From Alcanivorax sp. (GTDB taxonomy: Bacteria > Pseudomonadota > Gammaproteobacteria > Pseudomonadales > Alcanivoracaceae), in NCBI RefSeq assembly GCF_002733835.1, contig NZ_NVWY01000002.1, forward strand, positions 1 to 64,000: 64,000 nucleotides of DNA, read 5' to 3'. A model generated the notes under the pieces. It did no database searches and was not told the origin of the DNA. It was given only the letters and a program-made list of their open reading frames with translations. Every line of letters starts with the position of its first letter. Position 1 is the first letter of the stretch. The translations under genes and the position numbers were made by a program. This document shows, piece by piece, positions 5,266 through 43,020 of this stretch.

Positions 5266-6026
5266 CAGCGCTCTCCCTGTCGATAAAACTGTGCCAACAG
5301 GCGGTACAGGGCCGGCCAGTCCTTGTAGAGCTGGTCCGGCCCTTCGAAAAAGGCCTCACTGCACACCGCAAAAAACTCACCCGGACCGGTCAACGCATAA
5401 GCATCCACCGGCATGGGCCGGTGGTGCTGATAATCGCTCAGCAACTCTTCCCAGCACGCGGTGAAGGTGTCATGCCATTGTTTCGGGTTCATCCCGGTAT
5501 GCAACGGCGGCCTGCCGTTGGCGCCATTACGGCGCATGTCCAGTTTGTGGGACATTTCATGGATCACCACATTGCTGGCCCGGTTATCCGGCGCACAGGC
5601 ATCACTGATCGCGTCCCAGGAGAGAATCACCGGGCCCTGATGCCAGGCCTCACCGGCCAGCACAGGCCCCTGGGCATGAACCACGCCGTCTTCGCTCAGG
5701 TGTGGCCGATTGGGAATGAAGGCGCCTTCGTACAAAATCACCGTGTACCAACCGTCATACCAATCCAACCCCAGGTACAGGATGGGCACACAGGCCATGG
5801 TTGCCACTTTCAGGCACATGGCATCGGTATAAGCGAACCCGCCGCCAGAGGCGATGCTTTTGCGGGCCAGGAAGCGCAGCGAAAGATCAAACAACGCCGT
5901 TCGCTCTTTACCTTCAAACCTGGCCATCAATGGCCAATCGCCCACTGCGGCCTCCCATTCTTGCCGGGTATACCCCATCTTCCTGACCCGACGGGCGTCC
6001 CGCCAGTTTTTCCAGGCTGCAAACAT
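5265..6026 (-). CDS. mtfA: MtfA-like zinc peptidase (M90)
   Basis: Cytosolic metallopeptidase family related to E. coli MtfA, which binds the glucose repressor Mlc. The zinc motif is H156-E-M-S-H160-KLD and the downstream EFFAVCSEAFF holds the likely third ligand. At 253 residues it is close to the family size. First gene of a two-gene unit on the minus strand and divergent from the DMT exporter. Whether it acts on an Mlc-type repressor here is not shown by the sequence. Confidence 0.88.
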   Translation of the reverse strand: MFAAWKNWRDARRVRKMGYTRQEWEAAVGDWPLMARFEGKERTALFDLSLRFLARKSIASGGGFAYTDAMCLKVATMACVPILYLGLDWYDGWYTVILYEGAFIPNRPHLSEDGVVHAQGPVLAGEAWHQGPVILSWDAISDACAPDNRASNVVIHEMSHKLDMRRNGANGRPPLHTGMNPKQWHDTFTACWEELLSDYQHHRPMPVDAYALTGPGEFFAVCSEAFFEGPDQLYKDWPALYRLLAQFYRQGER

Positions 6027-6100
6027 TCACTGTCCTCACGTTCTACTGTTTGTGATTACTGGCGTCTACTTTGACCATGAAAGTGGCGTTTCACCAGTCG

Positions 6101-6128
6101 TTACCGGTCAGCATGGCTGTGCTACCAT
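6101..6128 (+). promoter_or_regulatory. Sigma-70 promoter with extended -10
   Basis: TTACCG (6101-6106), 16-bp spacer, then TGC-TACCAT (6120-6128). It lies in the gap between divergent genes and would place the transcript start near 6135. This favours the downstream GTG at 6161 over earlier in-frame starts for the exporter. Confidence 0.5.
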
Positions 6129-6160
6129 CGCCAACCGGTTTCTACTGCGAATACTGTTCA

Positions 6161-7126
6161 GTGCCTATCCGCCCATCCCATAAAGCCGACCTGCTGCTTC
6201 TGGTGGTCACGCTTCTGGCTGCCATCAGCTGGATGTTCTCCAAAGAAGCGGTGCTGGCCATGCCTCCTCTGTTATTCATGTCGCTGCGCTTCCTGCTGGC
6301 GGCAAGCCTGCTGGCCATGGCGGCGCATCATCAACTGCGCCGTCTGAGCGGCCAGCAGCTGCTCCGCTGTGTCCGGGTTGGTACCGTTTTCGGCATTGCC
6401 ATGAGCTGCTGGGTAATGGGCCTGGCCATGGGCGAACACGTGGGGGAAGGCGCCTTTCTGACCAGCCTGGGCGTGGTGCTGGTGCCAGTGCTAGGCCGGC
6501 TGATTTTTGCCGAACCGGTGCCTGGCAGTACCTGGCTCGCACTGCCAGTGGCTGCCGCAGGGCTGGCCCTGCTGTCTTTGGATCAGGAACTGCATCTGGA
6601 GGCCGGGCAGTTATTCTTTGTGGCCGCTGCCACCATTTTCGCGCTTTATTTCAATCTCAATACCCGCGCCGCCAACCCCCTCTCTACCCGGGGGACGAAT
6701 GGTGAATCCATTGAACACCCTCGCGTCCCGGCCCTGGCGCTAACCACCATGGTGCTCGCCGTGGTGGGCGTACTGACCGGGGTGCTGTCTGCCATTTTTG
6801 AACCCTGGCAAAGTGTCGCGGCCAACGCCACACCACTACTGGTACTGTGGGTGGTGCTCAGTGCCACGGTAGGCACTGCCCTGCGTTTTCTGGTACAAAC
6901 CTATGCGCAAAGCCTGTCACTGCACAGCCATGGCGTTGTCATTATGGTGCTGGAACCCATGTGGACGGCACTGATGGCCGCCGCCTGGTTCGGTGAACAA
7001 ATGACGCTGCTGCAACTGGCAGGCTGCGCGCTGATCTTTCTATCGCTTCTGGTCAATCGCTGGCGTGCTGTACGCAGCCTCCTCAAAATTTTCCTGACCC
7101 GGATTTTTGTTCCAACCCCCAAGTAA
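6161..7126 (+). CDS. EamA/DMT family transporter
   Basis: Ten-helix drug/metabolite-type exporter, about 321 residues from GTG 6161, with two EamA repeats: VVTLLAAISWMFSKEA opens the first, and the second ends GEQMTLLQLAGCALIFLSLL. Frames upstream stay open to 6071, giving up to 351 residues, but the promoter-like sequence at 6101-6128 and typical family length point to the later start. Ribosome-site support is weak for all candidates. Substrate unknown. Confidence 0.85.
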   Translation: MPIRPSHKADLLLLVVTLLAAISWMFSKEAVLAMPPLLFMSLRFLLAASLLAMAAHHQLRRLSGQQLLRCVRVGTVFGIAMSCWVMGLAMGEHVGEGAFLTSLGVVLVPVLGRLIFAEPVPGSTWLALPVAAAGLALLSLDQELHLEAGQLFFVAAATIFALYFNLNTRAANPLSTRGTNGESIEHPRVPALALTTMVLAVVGVLTGVLSAIFEPWQSVAANATPLLVLWVVLSATVGTALRFLVQTYAQSLSLHSHGVVIMVLEPMWTALMAAAWFGEQMTLLQLAGCALIFLSLLVNRWRAVRSLLKIFLTRIFVPTPK

Positions 7127-31403: not shown

Positions 31404-31740
31404 TGTCTCTCCAGAGGGTTTGGGGATTATTTTGATTTCATCGGGCTTGACTGGGGAACATAAACTCTTCATTTCTGCGCCAGCTTTGAAATCTACTGTT
31501 GGAGAGGCTCTTGAGGCGCGATTGAGCCAAACTATCAAAGCTCTCCGGGTTCGAACAACGCACGGGAAAGACCTGCTCCGTGCCCTTAGGTGAGCAGAAA
31601 CCGGGCGAAAGTATGATGTGGATATCAACCGGATAATCCGGATACCCCCTTAAGTTGGTGCGTTGCCATTGGATTGTAAAATCAGCTTGCAGCGAGGATA
31701 TTATTTGATTTTAAATGCATTCTCCAATCTGGGCAGAGCA

Positions 31741-32571
31741 ATGAGGGATTTGACGCATATGGATTTGACCACAAACGCACCGAAAGATACGAAACTCAGC
31801 AAAATTGGCAGCATCTATAATGGGCTTGGAGGCGAGGCCCTGATGGCTTTCCTGACTGCGCTTAACCCAGCTCTTGCACCAGCGGCCATGATTGGTGGCT
31901 TATTAAACCTTGCATACACTGAGCGCAGCCAATACAAACTGGATTTTTTGCTGGGTTCGATTGAATCGAGGCTCCAGGATGCGCGCGACCGGATTGACCA
32001 GATTGATGAAAACCTTGAGGAAGCCCTGGAGTTTGCTGCGCAGGGCGTAAAAACAGCAACAAGTAAAGAGAAAATTGAACGGTTCGCGAAAATAATTTCC
32101 GGTCATGTTATTGATGGTTCCTCGTGGGATGAAACAGCGACAGCACTACGAACGCTTACCGGTCTAGAAGACGTTCATATCGAAGTCCTGAGTGCAGCAT
32201 CACAAATCAGTGATGTAAAGTCTGGCGGCAGAGGCTCCTTCTACATCAATGACCCTAAATCCCATCTGCGGAACACATCTGCAAAAACCTACGATGATGT
32301 ATTAAGTGGGAGCATCGGCATGGCAGAAAGCAGGGCTGGCAATGATTTCCTTAGTCACCATTACAAAGAAACCGTAAAGCCGGATATTTTAGAGTTCCTT
32401 CGTGACCGAAGCGCCACGGAGGTAACACTTTTTTGCAACGAAATGATGGCAAAAGGCCTTTTACATGACAATGATCAAGGGGATTTTTCAGAAGGGCCGG
32501 TATTTACACTGACAAGTGCGGCATATTGGTTTTTAGCGAAGATAGAAATAATATCGAGAGAAGAAGTGTAA
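31741..32571 (+). CDS. Unrecognised protein with coiled coil, AT-rich island
   Basis: About 276 residues from ATG 31741 (an ATG at 31759 is also possible; the frame is open from 31663). Layout: a hydrophobic stretch (LMAFLTALNPALAPAAMIGGLL), a coiled coil (SRLQDARDRIDQIDENLEEAL), an SKEKIERFAKIISGHVI segment, and a C-terminal portion resembling a winged helix (FTLTSAAYWFLAKIE). Similar layouts occur in stand-alone accessory genes, some near defence loci. GC is clearly lower than in neighbouring genes. No family named with confidence. Confidence 0.6.
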   Translation: MRDLTHMDLTTNAPKDTKLSKIGSIYNGLGGEALMAFLTALNPALAPAAMIGGLLNLAYTERSQYKLDFLLGSIESRLQDARDRIDQIDENLEEALEFAAQGVKTATSKEKIERFAKIISGHVIDGSSWDETATALRTLTGLEDVHIEVLSAASQISDVKSGGRGSFYINDPKSHLRNTSAKTYDDVLSGSIGMAESRAGNDFLSHHYKETVKPDILEFLRDRSATEVTLFCNEMMAKGLLHDNDQGDFSEGPVFTLTSAAYWFLAKIEIISREEV

Positions 32572-32700
32572 GAATCAGACTATTTGACTGCCCTCAATAA
32601 AGTGAGCACGCGAAATAGGTCTAAATTGGGCGCTCCTGAAGCCAGGGGCGCAAGATCAAGGTCCTGGGGGCAGGTCCCCCATTTCCCAGACAGTGGGATT

Positions 32701-32774
32701 AATGGGAATTGGGAGACCTGACCCCATTACTCACTGCAATGGGAATTGGGAGACCTGACCCCATTACTCACTGC
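32701..32774. repeat. Two exact 37-bp tandem copies at island edge
   Basis: Unit starting AATGGGAATTGGGAGACCTG occurs at 32701-32737 and 32738-32774 without mismatch. A related GGGGGCAGGTCCCCCATTTCCC stretch precedes it (32666 onward). Sequences with this GACCTGACCCC core are often seen with REP-type transposases. It abuts a truncated attC and may mark where the cassette array was broken. Confidence 0.75.
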
Positions 32775-32790
32775 AGGGTTGATTTGGGAT

Positions 32791-32810
32791 CACATTCGCT
32801 TGTTACATTC
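32791..32810 (-). other. Truncated attC remnant (cassette 4)
   Basis: On the minus strand GAATGTAACAAGCGAATG follows the stop of the last cassette gene. Its R''-like box ATGTAAC is one base from the ATATAAC expected from the cassette's 5' boundary (GTTATAT). No matching R' box follows; the tandem repeats begin instead. Confidence 0.5.
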
Positions 32811-32819
32811 ACGTTTCTA

Positions 32820-33917
32820 CTAATCTGCAACATACTCTTCCATGCAGTTCCAAGCGGTCATATTAATGTCGCCACCAGGCCTGGTTCGTGTTCCTCTCGC
32901 ACAATTCTTGAAGTTTCGTTCAAGCTCTATGAGGAAAGATGCAGGATTATCTTTATTGAGTTTTTTGACTTCTTGCTTTGAGGATACAATGCTATACAAA
33001 CCTCCCAGAACAATGCCTGTTCCTGCAATAGCTATTGTTGAAGCAGTAGGAATAGATAGGAGCTTACATAAACCAATTGAGGCTGGAATGCCCATCATAC
33101 TTGAGCCAAACCATTTTTTTGCTCCGATGAAGTCCGCACTTTTCTTATAGTCTTCTTGAGCTTTTGCTAGATCTTTAGCTTTTTTCTCGATTCTATCAAT
33201 CGAAATATCCCTGTCGACTGTACCTTTAATCTCTTTCTCTAACCCAGTGATGCAATTCCTGAAGTTTCTTATCTCATCTTGGCGTGACTCTCGGAATGCT
33301 AAAATTTTGTCAGCTGGAATTTCAGAGATGTTAACTGGTGTTAATTCGGAAACCAGCATATTGAACAATGCATAAGGATCTTCTAGGCGTTCATTGTCAT
33401 GCCCTGGTAATTGCAAGAAATCATCTACTGCACCATTTAATGTAAAGTAATTTGTTGCTGTCCATGCCTCAATGCTATTTGTGAACAAGGCCAGATTGTT
33501 ATTCACAGCAATTTCTTTTGCCATGAAAAGCATAAAGTTCGATGCAACTTCAGCTGGAACATAAAGCCATTCGTTTTCCTCTCTATACCCTAAACCCTTA
33601 AATAAATCTCTAACGATTTGATCTGTCTTTTGAGAGTGAAGCAAACTTACATCTTGCTCTTCAAAAGTTAATGCAGCCGCATCCCAATTCTCTAGAGCAT
33701 CCAAGAAGTCTTCAGATGTTTTGCGTGAGTATCTTGCCGGATCAATGATTTTACCTACGCTTCCTTCTTCAAGAAGTGGCATAAGGTCTATATCATCTTC
33801 TGGGATGACATTGTCAGGACATATTCTGTAAATATTGTCATGAATTAATGCCATGGATTTTATCAACTTAGAATTATCTAGGCTTATTTGCGGATAAAAT
33901 AGTGCATCCTTTTGCAC
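32820..33917 (-). CDS. Cassette gene, DUF6236-like protein
   Basis: 365 residues from GTG 33917, with AAGGAG about 6 nt upstream. The opening ALFYPQISLDNSKLIKSMALI and IYRICPD resemble the uncharacterised DUF6236 group. A coiled region (about 225-265) precedes two hydrophobic helices (about 280-315) and a Lys-rich end. AT-rich, with codon use unlike the core genes. Last cassette of the array; its own attC is truncated. Function unknown. Confidence 0.7.
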   Translation of the reverse strand: MQKDALFYPQISLDNSKLIKSMALIHDNIYRICPDNVIPEDDIDLMPLLEEGSVGKIIDPARYSRKTSEDFLDALENWDAAALTFEEQDVSLLHSQKTDQIVRDLFKGLGYREENEWLYVPAEVASNFMLFMAKEIAVNNNLALFTNSIEAWTATNYFTLNGAVDDFLQLPGHDNERLEDPYALFNMLVSELTPVNISEIPADKILAFRESRQDEIRNFRNCITGLEKEIKGTVDRDISIDRIEKKAKDLAKAQEDYKKSADFIGAKKWFGSSMMGIPASIGLCKLLSIPTASTIAIAGTGIVLGGLYSIVSSKQEVKKLNKDNPASFLIELERNFKNCARGTRTRPGGDINMTAWNCMEEYVAD

Positions 33918-33932
33918 AATATCTCCTTCATG

Positions 33933-34006
33933 GATATAACGCCGCTAAGCACGCGCGGTTACGGAATGGAGGCGAAGCCGCAATGCAGTAGCTTTCATGG
34001 TTATGC
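33933..34006 (-). other. attC site C (cassette 3)
   Basis: 74 nt between R'' GCATAAC (34000-34006) and R' GTTATAT (33934-33940), read on the minus strand. R'' is complementary to this cassette's 5' boundary GTTATGC. The arms pair partly (GCTA..GCA..GCGG against the opposite strand) around a small GGCTTCGCC hairpin. Confidence 0.7.
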
Positions 34007-34342
34007 ATTGCCCAGCATTAGCGAATGTACTGGCAGGAGTACCGGCACTGTAAATTGAATTCTTGATGTATGGGAATTTTCTTTGAATTCGGTCGTGTCG
34101 CCATCTACTCCAATACCCATTACCTTGATACCACCTTTGACACCACTATCAGTTGACTCGGAAACTGCGACGGCGATATCAAATGAAACAACCTGAATAT
34201 CCTCACGCCCAGCCTCTTTTGCACCGCCCCAAACGGGGTTAATCGCACCCGGAATCTCGCCTGCCTTGGCCTTGTGGATAGCATCGTTTACTCCGCCCTG
34301 GATATCGACCAAGGTTTGCGATATGAATTCACGAAGTTCCAT
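34001..34342 (-). CDS. Cassette gene, small beta-rich protein
   Basis: 113 residues from ATG 34342; TAGGAG lies 6 nt upstream and 20 nt after the cassette boundary. An N-terminal helix (ELREFISQTLVDIQGGV) is followed by strands with GGIKVMGIG and a final RIQFTVPVLLP. This helix-then-sheet layout resembles the trypsin-co-occurring (trypco2-like) proteins, but the match is by pattern only. Its stop codon lies within attC C. Confidence 0.65.
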   Translation of the reverse strand: MELREFISQTLVDIQGGVNDAIHKAKAGEIPGAINPVWGGAKEAGREDIQVVSFDIAVAVSESTDSGVKGGIKVMGIGVDGDTTEFKENSHTSRIQFTVPVLLPVHSLMLGNA

Positions 34343-34359
34343 TTTCTGCTCCTATCAGT

Positions 34360-34421
34360 GCATAACGCCTGCTCAATAGGCGCGAGCTTGCGAGCGTCCT
34401 AATTGACGCATTTGTTAGAGC
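34360..34421 (-). other. attC site B (cassette 2)
   Basis: About 61 nt, minus strand: R'' CTCTAAC (34414-34420), central hairpin GACGCTCGC-AAG-CTCGCGC, R' GTTATGC (34360-34366). R'' complements GTTAGAG, the 5' boundary of cassette 2 at attC A. Canonical attC length and layout. Confidence 0.85.
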
Positions 34422-34422
34422 A

Positions 34423-34944
34423 TTATTCATACTGATGCCATTCTCTATAAACTTTCCAAACTGCTTGATAGTTTGAAGTAGAGTCAGGATGCATTAAACG
34501 AGCATAAGACTCTCTTTTTGGATCGCAAATATTTTTGATTTCATTTATATAAGCTTTTCTAAACCGATCTTTGTCAGTTTTTGAATCAAGGTACTTTCCG
34601 CATGCATCCTCATATGCGTTTAAAAACCCTTCGATACACGAACGCCAGTTATTTTCTAAGTGATCCAAGTGGCTAAGCTCATGTTCTGCAAGATTTTCTC
34701 GCTTCCGTCCAGCTAAAAAATCACTTATTCGAAGGGCAGCTTCTTCGGACCTACTGCGCGTATTGAGAATCTGTTCTCTTAGGGCAGTTTCTCCTTGCCC
34801 AATAGCAATACGATTAGCTTCAATTGCATTCAAGTTCGATCTCTTGCTTGCGTTTGAAGACTTGATCGAGAATACAATGGACACAACCATGCTTAAAAGG
34901 GCAACAATAGCACTACCTAGCGAGATCCAATCACTGGCGTCCAT
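34423..34944 (-). CDS. Cassette gene, single-helix anchored coiled-coil protein
   Basis: 173 residues with one N-terminal membrane helix (SLGSAIVALLSMVVSIVF), then a polar helical domain rich in Glu, Lys and Arg and a Cys-containing FLNAYEDACGKYL. N-terminus outside or in the membrane, body cytosolic. ATG overlaps the stop of the preceding gene (TAATG), so this cassette carries two coupled genes. No family recognised. Confidence 0.65.
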   Translation of the reverse strand: MDASDWISLGSAIVALLSMVVSIVFSIKSSNASKRSNLNAIEANRIAIGQGETALREQILNTRSRSEEAALRISDFLAGRKRENLAEHELSHLDHLENNWRSCIEGFLNAYEDACGKYLDSKTDKDRFRKAYINEIKNICDPKRESYARLMHPDSTSNYQAVWKVYREWHQYE

Positions 34945-35288
34945 TAACTACCACCTTTCAAAATATTTTCAATCTCGTCAGCAAGATCGGAAAAATCATC
35001 ATTACTCGCATTAGTTACGAAGCCTTCTTCGATGATTCGTTTTGGCAGACCTAGTTCTCTATCTATCTGCTCTATAATCCGCTTTCTATCTTGCGGTGTT
35101 AATGGCTGATTGCTGCTAGTGTATACGAGATTATCAATATCCCTTTTTATAGCTTTGGCTTCTCTAAGGGTCTCGGACCCTTGAACGTTAGAGCCAGTAA
35201 TTTTCCTTCCATGTGAGAAACCATCTCTCTTAATGGCTTGCTTGATTCTCTGGGCGTATTCTTTTGCTAGCTCGTTAAATGATGCCAT
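34944..35288 (-). CDS. Cassette gene, small helical protein
   Basis: 114 residues: a basic N-terminal half (AQRIKQAIKRDGFSHGRKITG) and an acidic C-terminus (DDFSDLADEIENILKGG). Predominantly helical, no membrane segment. Starts about 50 nt after the cassette boundary and is translationally coupled to the anchored protein downstream. The basic/acidic split and pairing suggest the two interact. No family recognised. Confidence 0.65.
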   Translation of the reverse strand: MASFNELAKEYAQRIKQAIKRDGFSHGRKITGSNVQGSETLREAKAIKRDIDNLVYTSSNQPLTPQDRKRIIEQIDRELGLPKRIIEEGFVTNASNDDFSDLADEIENILKGGS

Positions 35289-35331
35289 TAATTTTTCCTT
35301 AATATTTTATACGGTTACTGTGATCTTACAG

Positions 35332-35379
35332 CTCTAACGCTGCCAACACGCGCTTGTCGCGTGCTTGGCCTTGTTAATG
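35332..35379 (-). other. attC site A (cassette 1)
   Basis: 48 nt, minus strand: R'' CATTAAC, GGCCAAGCACGCG, a 4-nt loop, GCGCGTGTTGGC, R' GTTAGAG. The arms pair with one extra unpaired G, as attC sites use to set strand choice. R'' matches the cassette 5' boundary GTTAATG at 35700-35706. Rather short for an attC. Confidence 0.8.
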
Positions 35380-35382
35380 AAA

Positions 35383-35691
35383 CTAAGCCACCGCAAAGAA
35401 AACCCCAATTGCGATGACCGCCAATCCAGCAATGCTTAGGCTATTTCCTAGGATAGTGTTTTCCCTGTTTCGGACGGTAATTCTGTAGCGGGCATTAATA
35501 GTTGTTGTAGGGACGTGATTAATCCACTCGCCAAGCCCAACCAATATCGCTCCAGCGGAAAGAAGCTGAACAACCAAATTTGGCGCCATAAGCTCCACTG
35601 TTAGGGATAAAACAAGGATTGGAGCAGCCACTGCCAGAACAACCTTGTACCAGTTATCAAGCTTCAATTTTGAAAGCAGACTCTCCGACAT
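35383..35691 (-). CDS. Cassette gene, two- to three-helix membrane protein
   Basis: 102 residues from ATG 35691 (GGGGGGCG upstream). Helices at about 15-30 and 40-55 and a third at the C-terminus (SIAGLAVIAIGVFFAVA), joined by a basic loop RYRITVRNRENT. The frame is open to 35754, but those residues lie upstream of the cassette boundary. First visible cassette of the array. Function unknown. Confidence 0.65.
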   Translation of the reverse strand: MSESLLSKLKLDNWYKVVLAVAAPILVLSLTVELMAPNLVVQLLSAGAILVGLGEWINHVPTTTINARYRITVRNRENTILGNSLSIAGLAVIAIGVFFAVA

Positions 35692-35699
35692 TCGCCCCC

Positions 35700-35706
35700 C
35701 ATTAAC
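35700..35706 (-). other. 5' boundary of cassette 1 (R' core)
   Basis: GTTAATG on the minus strand, the predicted crossover G/TTAATG. The sequence upstream (GAAGCC..CGTTC facing GAACGGGCTTC, 35707-35755) is an inverted repeat that could be part of another attC or of an attI site. No complete partner box was found. Confidence 0.5.
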
Positions 35707-35934
35707 AGGTATTAGGAAGCCCGTTCGAATATCCAATGAACGCGCCGGCTTCATATCACATTTATCAATTTCATATACCGACCGATAAAAGCAGAAATCT
35801 CAACGGGTTACAACGGCGCCCTTTTCCAGGCGGTTGTGATATGAGGAAGGCGTCGTTTCCTGATCAAGCGGTGGGGAGCAGTTTGTATACCCGTTTGAGC
35901 GAAGTTTTCTGACGAAGGTGGGATTTTGAAAGGT

Positions 35935-36016: not shown

Positions 36017-37549
36017 TTAGTCTTTGTTTTTCCAATCCAGACTATAAAGATCATCCCGTCGATCACGCAGGTTGGTCACCGACCCTTCCCGGTGTAGCAG
36101 TTTCAGCTTCTCCAGATCCACATCCGCAAACATCAGCATTTCGGTATTGGGGACCGACTCACTGATGATGGCATCGTGGGGGAAATAGAAGTCGCTGGGG
36201 GAAAATACCGAGGACTGGGCGTACTGGATGTCCACCGCATCCACCCGCGGCAGGTTGCCCACGGAGCCGGCGATGGCCACGTAGCATTCGTTTTCGATGG
36301 CGCGGGCCTGGGCGCAGTGGCGTACGCGCAGGTAGCCGTTTTTGGTGTCGGTCCAGAACGGTACGAAGAGGATATCCATCTTTTCGTCGGCGAGGACGCG
36401 GCCCAGTTCGGGGAATTCCACGTCGTAGCAGATGAGGATGCCCACCCGGCCCGCGTCGGTGTCGAACACCTGCAGGCGGTCACCACCCTGGATAACCCAG
36501 TCGCGCCGTTCGTGGGGGGTGATGTGGATCTTGTACTGGGATTCCACCGAGCCATCGCGGCGCATCAGGTAGGCCACGTTGTAGACCTTGTCATCTTCAA
36601 TCACCGGCATGGAGCCGCCGACGATGTTGATGTTGTAGCTCACCGCCATGTCCGCCAACGCATCGCGGACTTCGTCGGTAAAGCTTGCCAGGAAGCGCAC
36701 TGCTTCCACGGAGTTCAATTCCGGGCGCAGCCCCATGAGCGGCGCGCTGAAGAATTCCGGCAGCACGGCGAAATCCGCGCGGTAATCGGACAGCGCGTCG
36801 ATAAAGAATTCCACCTGATTGAGCAGGTCCTGCACGTCGCGGGCGGCGCGCATGCGGCGCTGGACTACCCCCACACGCACTACGGTACGGCGCGGCCATT
36901 CGGCGTCGTCGTCTTCCGGTTCGTAGAGGATGTTGTCCCATTCCAGCAGGGTGGCGTAGCCGTGGGAGTCTTCGTCTTCCGGCAAATACGCTTTCATCAA
37001 ACGCTTCACGTCGAAGCCATTGGAAAGCTGGAATGACAAAATAGGATCGTAGATGGCGCGGGCTTCCACCTGCTCGATATATTCGGTCACCGGCATCTGG
37101 TCCGCGTAGTTGGTATACCCCGGCAGGCGACCACCCGCCAAAATCGCACGCAGGTTTTCTTCCCGGCACAGCTCTTTACGCGCTTCGTAAAGCCGGCGCC
37201 CCAAACGGTAGCCCCGGTATTCCTTATCCACGAACACATCCAGCCCGTACAGCGCATCGCCCTTCTTGTCGTGGGACTGGACCTTGTCGTCGGTGATCAG
37301 GTCTTCGTAGCGGTGCGGGTTGGAGAAACGGTCGTATTTCACCTTGATGGTCAGCGCGGTGGCCACCAGCTCGCCGTTGTCCTCGATCACCAGTTGCCCG
37401 TCCGGGAAAATGCGGATCAGGGTCTTGATGGTCTCTTCCGGCCAGGCACCGCCGATGTCGTGGTAGACCTGGTTCATGAGAAGCGCCAGCGCGGGGTAAT
37501 CGTCCTCGGTGAGGGTGCGCAGACGCAGGCGAGTGGTTTCTTCGGCCAT
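36017..37549 (-). CDS. GNAT acetyltransferase-nitrilase fusion protein
   Basis: 510 residues from ATG 37549 (GGAG upstream). Residues about 8-200 form a GNAT acyl-CoA N-acyltransferase (GLDVFVDKEYRGYRLGRRLY, the acetyl-CoA loop). Residues about 225-495 form a carbon-nitrogen hydrolase with the Glu-Lys-Cys triad: VLPEFF, YKIHITPHE and GILICYDVEFPE. Fused proteins of this layout occur widely in bacteria; substrates are unknown, probably a small amide. In-frame start codons further up add unconserved residues. Confidence 0.9.
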   Translation of the reverse strand: MAEETTRLRLRTLTEDDYPALALLMNQVYHDIGGAWPEETIKTLIRIFPDGQLVIEDNGELVATALTIKVKYDRFSNPHRYEDLITDDKVQSHDKKGDALYGLDVFVDKEYRGYRLGRRLYEARKELCREENLRAILAGGRLPGYTNYADQMPVTEYIEQVEARAIYDPILSFQLSNGFDVKRLMKAYLPEDEDSHGYATLLEWDNILYEPEDDDAEWPRRTVVRVGVVQRRMRAARDVQDLLNQVEFFIDALSDYRADFAVLPEFFSAPLMGLRPELNSVEAVRFLASFTDEVRDALADMAVSYNINIVGGSMPVIEDDKVYNVAYLMRRDGSVESQYKIHITPHERRDWVIQGGDRLQVFDTDAGRVGILICYDVEFPELGRVLADEKMDILFVPFWTDTKNGYLRVRHCAQARAIENECYVAIAGSVGNLPRVDAVDIQYAQSSVFSPSDFYFPHDAIISESVPNTEMLMFADVDLEKLKLLHREGSVTNLRDRRDDLYSLDWKNKD

Positions 37550-37709
37550 AAAAAAACTCCGTTTTTCGCTGCACGCGTCACGCTCAACGCAACAACGCGA
37601 TACAGGTCTATTCATCTCTTCAATGCCGCAGCCGCGCTTCAATGCTGCCGGTTACGACGATTTTTGCTTTTCCGTAGTGCGTGCCGCGTGCTGCATGCTG
37701 CGTCTCTTT

Positions 37710-40494: not shown

Positions 40495-42822
40495 TTAGAA
40501 CAAGCCACCCAGCAGATTTTCGAACAGGTCCGTCAGGGCGTTGCCGGATTCCAGAGAGATGCCCTCGCCGGTTTCCTGATTCGCCAGACAAGCCAGACCC
40601 AGAGTCAGCGACAGGTTGCCCTCGTCATTAAAGGCACTCAGTAGCGGACAGCCCGGCAGCAGGCCGATCTGCTCGGAGTTGAGCAGCTCCACGTTGTCCA
40701 GGGACTCGATGAAGCATTCGGTCGGATCCACGGTACCGGTTTCAGAGGTTTCCGGGCACACCTGATCGGTGAGTGGATTCGGCTCGGTCAGCGGACCCAA
40801 CAGCTCTTCCAGGGCGGCAAGACCGGCACCGGCTTCCGTCAGACAGTCAGTGGGCGTAGTGGGACCAATCGCACCAGCAGCGGTTTCCGGACAAAACTGC
40901 TCCAGCAACGGGGCCAGCGGGTTGTCGCCACCGCCACCACCGGGCAGACCACCGCCAGCCGCTTCCATGAAGCAGGCCGCCGGGTCGATCGGGCTGTTCG
41001 CTGCCGCTTCCGGGCACAGCGCCTCGGTCAGTGGGTTGGACCCCAGCAGCAGCTCTTCCACATTACCGAAGCTGTTACCGGCTTCGGTCAGACAGTCGAT
41101 CGGGGTGGTCGGGCCAAGATCTGCTTCAGAGGTTGCCGGGCAGAATTGCGCCAGTACCGGCTGCAGTGGATTGCCATCGGCACCCGGCAGGCCACCGCCA
41201 CCCGGAGCGAAACCACCAGCCGCTTCTTCAAAGCAGGCGGCAGGATCAATCGGGCTGTTAGCAGCCGCTTCCGGGCACAGTTGCTCGGTCAGTGGGTTGG
41301 AACCCAGCAGCAAGTCCTGCACGTCGCCGAAGTTACCGCCAGCTTCAGTCAGACAGTCGATGGGTGTGGTCGGGCCCAGGTCAGCCTCGGAGGTTTCCGG
41401 GCAGAACTGCGCCAACACAGGCTCTAGCGGATTGCCGTCGGCACCCGGCAGGCCACCGCCACCCGGGGCGAAACCACCAGCCGCTTCTTCGAAGCAGGCC
41501 GCAGGATCAATCGGGCTGTTAGCAGCCGCTTCCGGGCACAGTTGCTCGGTCAGCGGGTTGGAGCCCAGCAGCAGGTCTTGCACGTCACCGAAGTTACCAC
41601 CGGCTTCGGTCAGACAGTCGATCGGCGTGGTCGGACCCAGATCCGCTTCGGAGGTTTCCGGGCAGAATTGCGCCAGTACCGGCTCCAGCGGGTTGCCATC
41701 GGCACCCGGCAGGCCACCGCCACCCGGGGCAAAGCCACCGGCTGCTTCAGAGAAACAGGCTGCGGGATCAATCGGGCTGTTGGCAGCCGCTTCCGGGCAC
41801 AGTTGTTCTGTCAGCGGGTTGGAACCCAGCAGCAGGTCCTGCACGTCCTGGAAGTTACCACCAGCTTCAGCCAGGCAGTCGATCGGGGTGGATGGGCCAA
41901 GGTCCGCCATGGCGGTTTCCGGGCAGAACTGTTCAAGGGCCGGAGCGAATGGGTTGCTACCGCCGTCGCCGCCATCACCACCACCTGGAATGCCACCGCC
42001 CATCAGGGCTTCAGCAAAACACTGGGGAGGATCAATTCGGCCATCCGCATTATCTTCAGGACAAATCTGCTCGGTCAGCGGATTACTCGCGGTGAGCATA
42101 TCGTAGATGTCTATATAGGCACGGCTGGCTTCGTTGAGACAGTTGACAGGGGTTTCCGGGCCCAGCTCCTGTTCGCCGGTTTCCGGGCAAAGCTGGGCAA
42201 GCAGCTGGTCAGAACCGGGCAGGCCGCCATCGCCGCCGGGCAAATCGCCACCGCCACCAACGGCTTCCGTAAAGCAGGCAGCGGGATCAATCGGGCTATT
42301 CGCCGCCGCTTCCGGGCACAGTTGCTCGGTCAGCGGGTTGGAGCCACCGATCATGTCACCGATGTTCTGGAAATTCCCGGCCGCTTCCTGCAGACAGGCT
42401 GCCGGGAAGGTGGCAGAACCGTCAAAAGACGTGTCGGTATCGTAAAGGAAATCCTGGTCCAGCATTTCACCGTTGAAAGTCAGCGTGGCATCAAATACCT
42501 GCGCCGCTTCCGGGCAGAACTGCTGTACTACCGGATTCAGCGACAGCTCATAGCCGGTATCTTCCTCGGCAGCGTCTTCGCTTTCATCCAGACAGGTTGC
42601 GGGATCAATGGAACCGCCCTCCCCTGCATCGCCGGACGCACCGGGACACAAAGCATCGGTCAGTTCGTTCTGATCGTCGATGATTTCTGCGATTTCCGGA
42701 GGCAGGGCACGGGCCGCCGGGCCTGAGTCGGCAGGCGCTGAGCTGCTGCCTCCACCGCCACAGGCCGTCAGCAGTGCCGCAAGGGCGCTGCTGCCTACCA
42801 GAAGTTTGAATTGATTAGCCAA
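40495..42822 (-). CDS. Cysteine-repeat lipoprotein
   Basis: About 775 residues from TTG 42822: GGAGGGG lies 7 nt upstream, and the product then starts MANQFKLLVG with lipobox LLTAC; ATG 42837 would overlap that ribosome site. After the lipidated Cys come 32 further Cys in 16 pairs, each of the form C-P, 12-20 residues, then C-L/F (nearly always followed by x-E). Two pairs make one 87-residue unit (NPLTEQLCPEAAANSP...), repeated about six times, separated by Gly-rich linkers. Acidic throughout. Surface or periplasmic, role unknown. Confidence 0.75.
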   Translation of the reverse strand: MANQFKLLVGSSALAALLTACGGGGSSSAPADSGPAARALPPEIAEIIDDQNELTDALCPGASGDAGEGGSIDPATCLDESEDAAEEDTGYELSLNPVVQQFCPEAAQVFDATLTFNGEMLDQDFLYDTDTSFDGSATFPAACLQEAAGNFQNIGDMIGGSNPLTEQLCPEAAANSPIDPAACFTEAVGGGGDLPGGDGGLPGSDQLLAQLCPETGEQELGPETPVNCLNEASRAYIDIYDMLTASNPLTEQICPEDNADGRIDPPQCFAEALMGGGIPGGGDGGDGGSNPFAPALEQFCPETAMADLGPSTPIDCLAEAGGNFQDVQDLLLGSNPLTEQLCPEAAANSPIDPAACFSEAAGGFAPGGGGLPGADGNPLEPVLAQFCPETSEADLGPTTPIDCLTEAGGNFGDVQDLLLGSNPLTEQLCPEAAANSPIDPAACFEEAAGGFAPGGGGLPGADGNPLEPVLAQFCPETSEADLGPTTPIDCLTEAGGNFGDVQDLLLGSNPLTEQLCPEAAANSPIDPAACFEEAAGGFAPGGGGLPGADGNPLQPVLAQFCPATSEADLGPTTPIDCLTEAGNSFGNVEELLLGSNPLTEALCPEAAANSPIDPAACFMEAAGGGLPGGGGGDNPLAPLLEQFCPETAAGAIGPTTPTDCLTEAGAGLAALEELLGPLTEPNPLTDQVCPETSETGTVDPTECFIESLDNVELLNSEQIGLLPGCPLLSAFNDEGNLSLTLGLACLANQETGEGISLESGNALTDLFENLLGGLF
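40700..42339 (-). repeat. Tandem 261-bp coding repeats
   Basis: The 87-codon unit of the lipoprotein recurs about six times plus a partial copy. The three units between about 41040 and 41830 are nearly identical at the DNA level, indicating recent duplication or gene conversion. Edges are approximate. Confidence 0.85.
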
Positions 42823-43020
42823 GATGAACCCCTCCATCGTACTTTGTCGTTATGGCCCCCAGAACAGGAGCTGGTATCAACGACTATGAAAGGGATGTGC
42901 AATCTGCTGTAGAGCAAGGAGGTTGGTAGACTGTTAACAAGCGTAGCCAGCGTTACCGATTAGTGTCTGAACAAGGCTCAAGACAACTTTTCGATTACAG
43001 TTTCAGCAATCCTTCCGCTG

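Follow-up and report, generated by a model that had tools for sequence, protein, structure and literature searches.

Clusters of attC sites lacking integron-integrases (CALINs) are regarded, in the accessible parts of the papers that treat them, as degraded integrons or as off-target insertions (PMC9024848, PMC8618304). The available portion of a Xanthomonas study describes conserved CALIN loci that are fixed and lie away from the locus of the integrase gene, intI (PMC12444791). Cassettes are also inserted away from intI at attG secondary sites, and pieces of attI away from the intI-adjacent position are found in cassettes of mobile integrons, the Delta-attI type, where the accessible text places them inside cassettes of class 1 and class 2 arrays (PMC12901181). 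Here we describe an attC array of Alcanivorax sp. that begins at an orphan attI. The window, by which we mean the whole stretch of DNA analysed, comprises the initial 64 kb of contig C1 (212,877 bases) in a draft genome of 3.6 Mb and 64 contigs (G000), and it was compared with its family in a set of 46 genomes, 17 of which belong to one genus. Like a CALIN, the locus is a cluster of attC sites without an adjacent intI; unlike the CALINs described, arrays here start on a conserved attI. The attI, the attC sites, the G|TT crossover and the orientation of the cassettes are those of a sedentary chromosomal integron, a complete example of which is present on contig C2 of the same genome, whereas here most attIs stand alone, several per genome, with at most one intI above cut-off per genus member. 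The fixed position away from intI recalls the Xanthomonas loci, for which the accessible text mentions no attI copies, and cassette change at a fixed attI is new here (PMC12444791). Unlike the Delta-attI pieces, the attIs described here are chromosomal and stand at the 5' start of arrays. Comparison of these loci makes it probable that a distributed chromosomal integron has one of its platforms at the window locus; the integrase would act in trans on many attI platforms.

The window carries three attC sites on the minus strand, A, B and C, all of which were detected with covariance models. A first model, built from 17 attC sites of other arrays with the window sites excluded, returned A at 35332-35379 (E 6.6e-7), C at 33934-34006 (E 0.053) and B at 34360-34420 (E 0.27) over the 64 kb, together with one unrelated match (E 0.18). 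A second model of 111 sites, A included and B and C excluded, gave E values of 2.8e-8 for A, 2.4e-6 for C and 0.014 for B, with no further match up to E 5. A hand-made stem scan proved too strict and was set aside. The cassette array proposed in a preliminary description of this DNA is thus real.

Insertion of a circular cassette into an attI leaves letters of the cassette behind G|TT, and these pair with the R'' of that cassette. This pairing is exact (7/7) in the three complete cassettes, all on the minus strand: cassette 1 (35338-35705, with attC A) pairs GTTAATG with CATTAAC, cassette 2 (34366-35337, attC B) GTTAGAG with CTCTAAC, and cassette 3 (33940-34365, attC C) GTTATGC with GCATAAC. 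In cassette 4 (32802-33939, minus strand) the attC is reduced to its R'' end at 32802-32808, which neither model detects, and the box GTTATAT agrees with ATGTAAC in 6/7 positions, one base off, as the preliminary description had stated. The box argument of that description also proved sound beyond the window, since 91 of 116 cassettes of the window and related arrays pair in 7/7 positions, compared with 6.3 expected when the boxes are shuffled. Boundaries at G|TT combined with complementarity between own box and own R'' mark this as an array inserted by an IntI. By definition it is also a CALIN, with at least two attC sites (three here, one of them weak) and no intI beside them, the sole intI above cut-off lying on C2. 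The earlier statement that no intI is present accordingly holds for the window, where tblastn gave no IntI match, and fails for the genome.

Two things had been overlooked: the intI elsewhere in the genome, and an attI at 35703-35813 on the minus strand. Its core occupies 35703-35759 and the crossover lies between 35706 (G) and 35705 (T), exactly where cassette 1 begins. Over 111 bp the block shares 83% identity with the attI next to intI in A. jadensis (G003) and 86% with that of A. hongdengensis (G002); within the 57-bp core, 51/57 and 55/57 positions agree, respectively. Homology to a site lying between intI and the first cassette identifies 35703-35813, at the level of sequence, as an attI.

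We found this orphan attI conserved at the same locus in 8 species. Homology between the window and 7 relatives stops at 35702-35705, where cassette 1 has its G|TT crossover, and each relative continues with different sequence. Mean pairwise identity is 0.78-0.99 over the attI and falls to 0.26-0.31 directly behind it, and none of the 28 species pairs shares sequence behind the crossover, a count that covers up to 2,000 bases per species and about 420 in G015, where the contig ends. The comparison of the locus between related genomes suggested in the preliminary description therefore found other cassettes in the relatives, in favour of the CALIN reading. Eight other genus members that have the orthologous flanking gene show no homology to the attI block at the locus. 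In the 8 species tblastn detected no trace of intI at the locus, which, having no adjacent intI, is not a complete integron in any of them. In all 8, homology to the site of G003 starts at the same position, -110. Taken together, the shared start and the missing intI trace make it probable that the orphan state goes back to the common ancestor of the 8 species.

This history bears on a different explanation, in which the orphan attI is the relic of a complete integron and the cassettes entered with a local intI and are now frozen. Such serial decay would account for the origin of many platforms: intI is whole, split or fragmentary at five of the sites fetched (L133, L135, L138 in two pieces, L141, and L143 as fragments), short traces of it are left at L148, L156, L166 and L168, with a farther-off fragment in L164, and several orphan copies still include the promoter region of intI and its first codons. 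The two pieces in L138, the integron of G004, lie about 1.2 kb apart, and the type-B integrase of that genome looks interrupted. At the window, decay has to be reconciled with a site that was probably an orphan in the ancestor of 8 species and yet has different cassettes in all of them (0/28). The C17-type locus likewise lacks a local intI in five species, and each of the five received a different cassette with an exact box. We therefore regard serial decay as an unlikely account of the cassettes, though one with some weight. The word 'remnant' used in the preliminary description finds no support, as the array begins at a conserved attI, the cassettes differ among species without a local intI trace, and a full-length intI exists elsewhere in the genome. 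In this one strain the cassettes could conceivably be a frozen relic.

Orphan attIs of this kind are dispersed in Alcanivorax and Alloalcanivorax, whose genomes carry several attI copies, most of them with a short array behind. The window attI belongs to a family that we call type B. The block gave 81 matches in 29 of the 46 family genomes, up to 8 per genome. Among 390 genomes drawn from the order, matches were confined to 15, which belong to this family and represent 3 genera. A strict pattern for the type-B core found 26 stretches in a collection of 84,980 species, with titles naming Alcanivorax, Alloalcanivorax or, in four cases, Pseudomonadales MAG.298, and none in viral contigs. We fetched 69 copies from 26 genomes, namely 68 of the 81 matches and one copy found by blastn; three of the 13 left unfetched stop short of the crossover. 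The copies fall into 25 groups by upstream flank, of which group 0 joins like-flanked sites, some within one genome, and is not a single locus. Within 3 kb of the copies, an attC on the same strand follows downstream in 58/69 and stands upstream in 0/69; on the opposite strand the count is 1/69 on either side. Less than 3 kb of sequence was available downstream in 11 copies and upstream in 10. Some of the loci counted here were in the training set of the second attC model, which also served for the upstream and opposite-strand controls. Among all groups of like upstream flank, 4 of 152 pairs share downstream sequence. The extent of homology varies, some copies keeping the intI promoter region and first codons and others 55-111 bp alone, so that the orphan attIs may be of mixed origin, some left by the decay of full integrons and others arising by attI duplication.

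A block that is multi-copy and palindromic could also be a dispersed repeat, such as a promoter or an element like a repetitive extragenic palindrome, lying next to cassettes by chance. Copy after copy ends at the crossover, attC lies on one side and on one strand, and the boxes fit the cassettes. Moreover, in G002, G003 and G004 it is this block that stands between intI and cassette 1 of the array. Box pairing effectively refutes this explanation, and we hold it to be very improbable.

The pairing was scored in 49 of the 69 copies, those without GTT or attC being dropped, and 44 of the scored copies have no adjacent intI. In these 44 the four variable letters all pair with the R'' in 36 copies, three letters in 7 and none in 1, where shuffled boxes would give 2.1 copies with all four. 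At the C17-type locus, five species that lack a local intI have five different boxes, every one exact. Exact pairing at sites that lack intI indicates that an integrase inserted cassettes there repeatedly, or into their ancestors before the local intI was lost. Given the sequences compared, insertion before such a loss seems hard to maintain at the window locus. A family of cassettes of about 338 bp connects the two kinds of array. Its members at the G004 counterpart of the window locus share 90-92% identity with cassettes of the C2 integron and 88-93% with those of the G002 integron (best pairs), measured on the cassette bodies of 259-263 bases with the attC part excluded. Orphan platforms and intI-bearing arrays thus draw on one pool.

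Type B is one of the four types of attI that we recognise. Type A, represented by the attI of C2, gave 46 matches in 16/46 genomes, 40 of them reaching the crossover end, and type C 42 matches in 16/46 genomes, all 42 reaching it; type C is the intI-adjacent site of G005, G007, G010, G014 and G015. Groups in a tree of IntI proteins match the attI types, with A (98/98) and C (100/99) well supported and B weak (69/48). Matches of types A-C that reach the crossover number 2 to 9 per genome across the 17 genus members, with a mean of 6.4; these counts include intI-adjacent sites and some short, weak ones. We then took a census of attC clusters in four genomes, three in a single contig and one in two contigs, and obtained 38 clusters. 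An A, B or C site stands within 4 kb on the same strand ahead of 26 of them, and conversely 28 of the 31 A, B or C sites in these genomes have attC behind; one such attI, 27 bp in G004, is a weak match whose core is visible on inspection. For the remaining 12 clusters, and for the C16 cluster of the window genome, we searched upstream for the complement of the first R''. Ten of those clusters had at the exact match a further shared sequence, about GATATATCGCATCTGCAATTGAATAnnCTG|TTA, which we call type D. It precedes 11 attC clusters (L179, L233-L235 and L237-L243). No intI-adjacent site of the genus is of type D, and the intI-adjacent site of G039, from another genus, has the same TTGAATACACTG core. 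With type D included, 36 of the 38 clusters of the four genomes and all 8 attC loci of the window genome sit on an attI.

Nearly all sites share [T/G]AATA..CTG|TTA. Alignment of 62 distinct type-B cores, representing 63 of the 69 copies, shows a single dyad with 15 pairs of positions about it, each complementary in over 70% of the cores; pair 9/41 covaries from A-T to C-G and is paired in 92%. The attI appears in this alignment as a palindrome, long and imperfect, with a short core behind it that is common to the four types. The dyad may be bound by protein or form a hairpin. Just upstream of the orphan attI in the window, at 35836-35855 on the plus strand, there is an inverted stretch resembling the 5' half of the type-B core. 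Its best agreement is 16 of 20 letters, a marginal value reached by 2 of 200 shuffles, and it is conserved in relatives.

These site types bear on the proposal that the cassettes were inserted off target, at chromosomal sites of the attG kind that have no relation to attI. That CALINs arise through off-target insertion, by an IntI whose gene lies at another place, is a recognised proposal (PMC8618304). The target here shares at least 111 bp with a true attI, and four repeated site types cover 36 of the 38 clusters. By comparison, attG sites are portrayed in the available portions of two studies as widely distributed and as diverging from the classical att sites (PMC12901181, PMC12444791); the window site, homologous to attI over 111 bp, is not of that kind. 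The chance that off-target insertion explains the locus appears slimmer still than that of a chance repeat.

The complete integron of the window genome lies on contig C2, with intI at 5638-6624 (387.7 bits, cut-off 265) and 19 cassettes delimited within the stretch fetched. The family of about 338 bp occurs six times among these 19. Besides C1 and C2, attC loci were found on C4, C16, C17, C20, C28 and C61, a count that leaves out a weak partial match on C22 (E 0.33). A candidate integrase of 330 amino acids on C60 scored 39.9 bits against the cut-off of 265 and was rejected, being far below it. The strict pattern RYYYAAC(30-60)GTTRRRY, used genome-wide, was also discarded, with 35 matches versus 64 per strand in the reversed control; it did point to the C2 array. 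In the genus, 13 of 17 members have one intI above cut-off and 4 (G001, G011, G013 and G016) have none.

As the window genome is a draft of 64 contigs, a contig break or mis-join might have parted the array from its intI. The site lies 35.7 kb inside its 212,877-base contig, and the orthologous site in G001 and G004, both single-contig genomes, is likewise without a trace of intI. These two genomes effectively refute an assembly artefact, whose probability we take to be negligible.

The mechanism that we favour, a distributed integron served in trans, would work as follows. After excision at attC sites, circular cassettes would be inserted by IntI made at one locus, at the G|TT crossover of one or another of several attI platforms, and each platform would keep a short array. 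The window platform would be a type-B attI downstream of an ordinary gene. In this genome the acting integrase would be the single IntI encoded on C2, unless a cognate IntI has been lost or was transient. The resident IntI would then act on all attI types and the platforms would still be active, and the conserved attI block may in addition aid cassette expression. G000 and G008 have IntI-A alone above cut-off and nevertheless have type-B platforms with differing cassettes, which favours cross-recognition while falling short of proof. For the genus as a whole we lean, with less assurance, towards the view that it keeps many dispersed attI sites in active use, of four types or more, on which the one integrase that a given strain happens to have acts in trans. 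Cassettes, some of them defence-like, would then be spread over fixed loci, most of them co-directional with replication, and not gathered in one long array.

Several observations weigh against this mechanism. The resident IntI belongs to clade A and the window attI to type B, so that cross-recognition is something we infer, and the argument for recombination at the platforms is drawn from comparing sequences. The four genus members with no intI above cut-off carry attIs all the same, and some platforms must now be idle unless an intI was missed. Upstream of the attI at the window locus identity is patchy, at 0.41-0.90, which means that the attI is not the sole conserved piece there. No sigma-70 promoter match was found in the attI region of the window. 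By itself attC B scores weakly, yet it is in line with the array and its boxes fit. Among the type-B copies, 11/69 have no attC within 3 kb downstream, and when the distance is extended to 5 kb an upstream attC on the same strand appears in 3/69. Two of the 38 clusters, L232 and L236, had no recognised attI in the upstream search with the complement of R''. L235 shows the type-D core, its box differing by one letter; a box off by one letter was also seen at L244, one of two controls whose attI is known.

In 131 of 149 cassettes the longest open reading frame (ORF) runs in the cassette sense, and in 13 it is antisense. Eight of 20 cassette proteins, which were chosen and are not a random draw, match PADLOC at 1e-6 (PDC-S35 with a TIR domain, S20, S51, S14, S59, M72A, PtuA and PtuB), four of them from platforms without an adjacent intI. 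In G012 and G004, 18 of 20 arrays are co-directional with replication as judged from sampled GC skew; the 20 orientations are not independent, since orthologous arrays are among them.

The window cassettes themselves encode five ORFs, all on the minus strand, for which no function had been assigned. Four of them have no Pfam family above cut-off: the ORF of 102 amino acids at 35383-35691 in cassette 1 (searched in a longer reading, 35383-35754), those at 34944-35288 and 34423-34944 in cassette 2, and the one at 34001-34342 in cassette 3, where Trypco2 appeared below cut-off only. The fifth, at 32820-33917 in cassette 4, is a DUF6236 protein (PF19749, 39.1 bits, cut-off 26.2) with one distant plasmid match, 20% identical and from Streptomyces. 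The cassette proteins of the window gave no PADLOC match at 1e-3 (best 0.007), and with PHROGs weak matches alone, of unknown function or holin-like. An Rfam scan of the window yielded 0 matches above gathering scores.

Beyond the attI, the conserved flanking gene at 36017-37642 on the minus strand encodes a carbon-nitrogen hydrolase with a GNAT domain (PF00795 and PF00583, both above cut-off). It reads towards the array and is not a cassette; a full-length orthologue occurs in relatives and some match in 46/46 family genomes. Behind the truncated end of the array, 32690-32780 contains short repeats with GGGGTCAGGTCTCCC, and a piece similar to them (91% over 65 bases) lies behind the cassettes at the same locus of G003 (L052). 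An ORF of 302 amino acids at 31663-32571 on the plus strand, between the array and the next conserved gene, has no family match and is found in 1 of 46 family genomes, its own. Elsewhere in the window, 40495-42837 on the minus strand encodes a 780-residue protein with long tandem repeats (NPLTEQLCPEAAANSPIDPAACF) and no Pfam family above cut-off.

Within the openly accessible literature searched, we found no paper on Alcanivorax attC, an Alcanivorax integron integrase or an orphan attI. The accessible text of papers on multiple or secondary attI, CALINs and attG gives no description of dispersed attI copies, and the Alcanivorax passages of one paper on integron gene cassettes concern folA. Within that same literature, dispersed orphan attI platforms thus appear to be unreported. 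All the above suggest that what looks like a broken integron may be an outpost of a distributed gene-capture system. If CALINs elsewhere, such as the fixed loci of Xanthomonas, also sit on orphan attIs, many of them may be working outposts; cassette expression would then not be confined to the head of one array, and the origin of CALINs would become testable.

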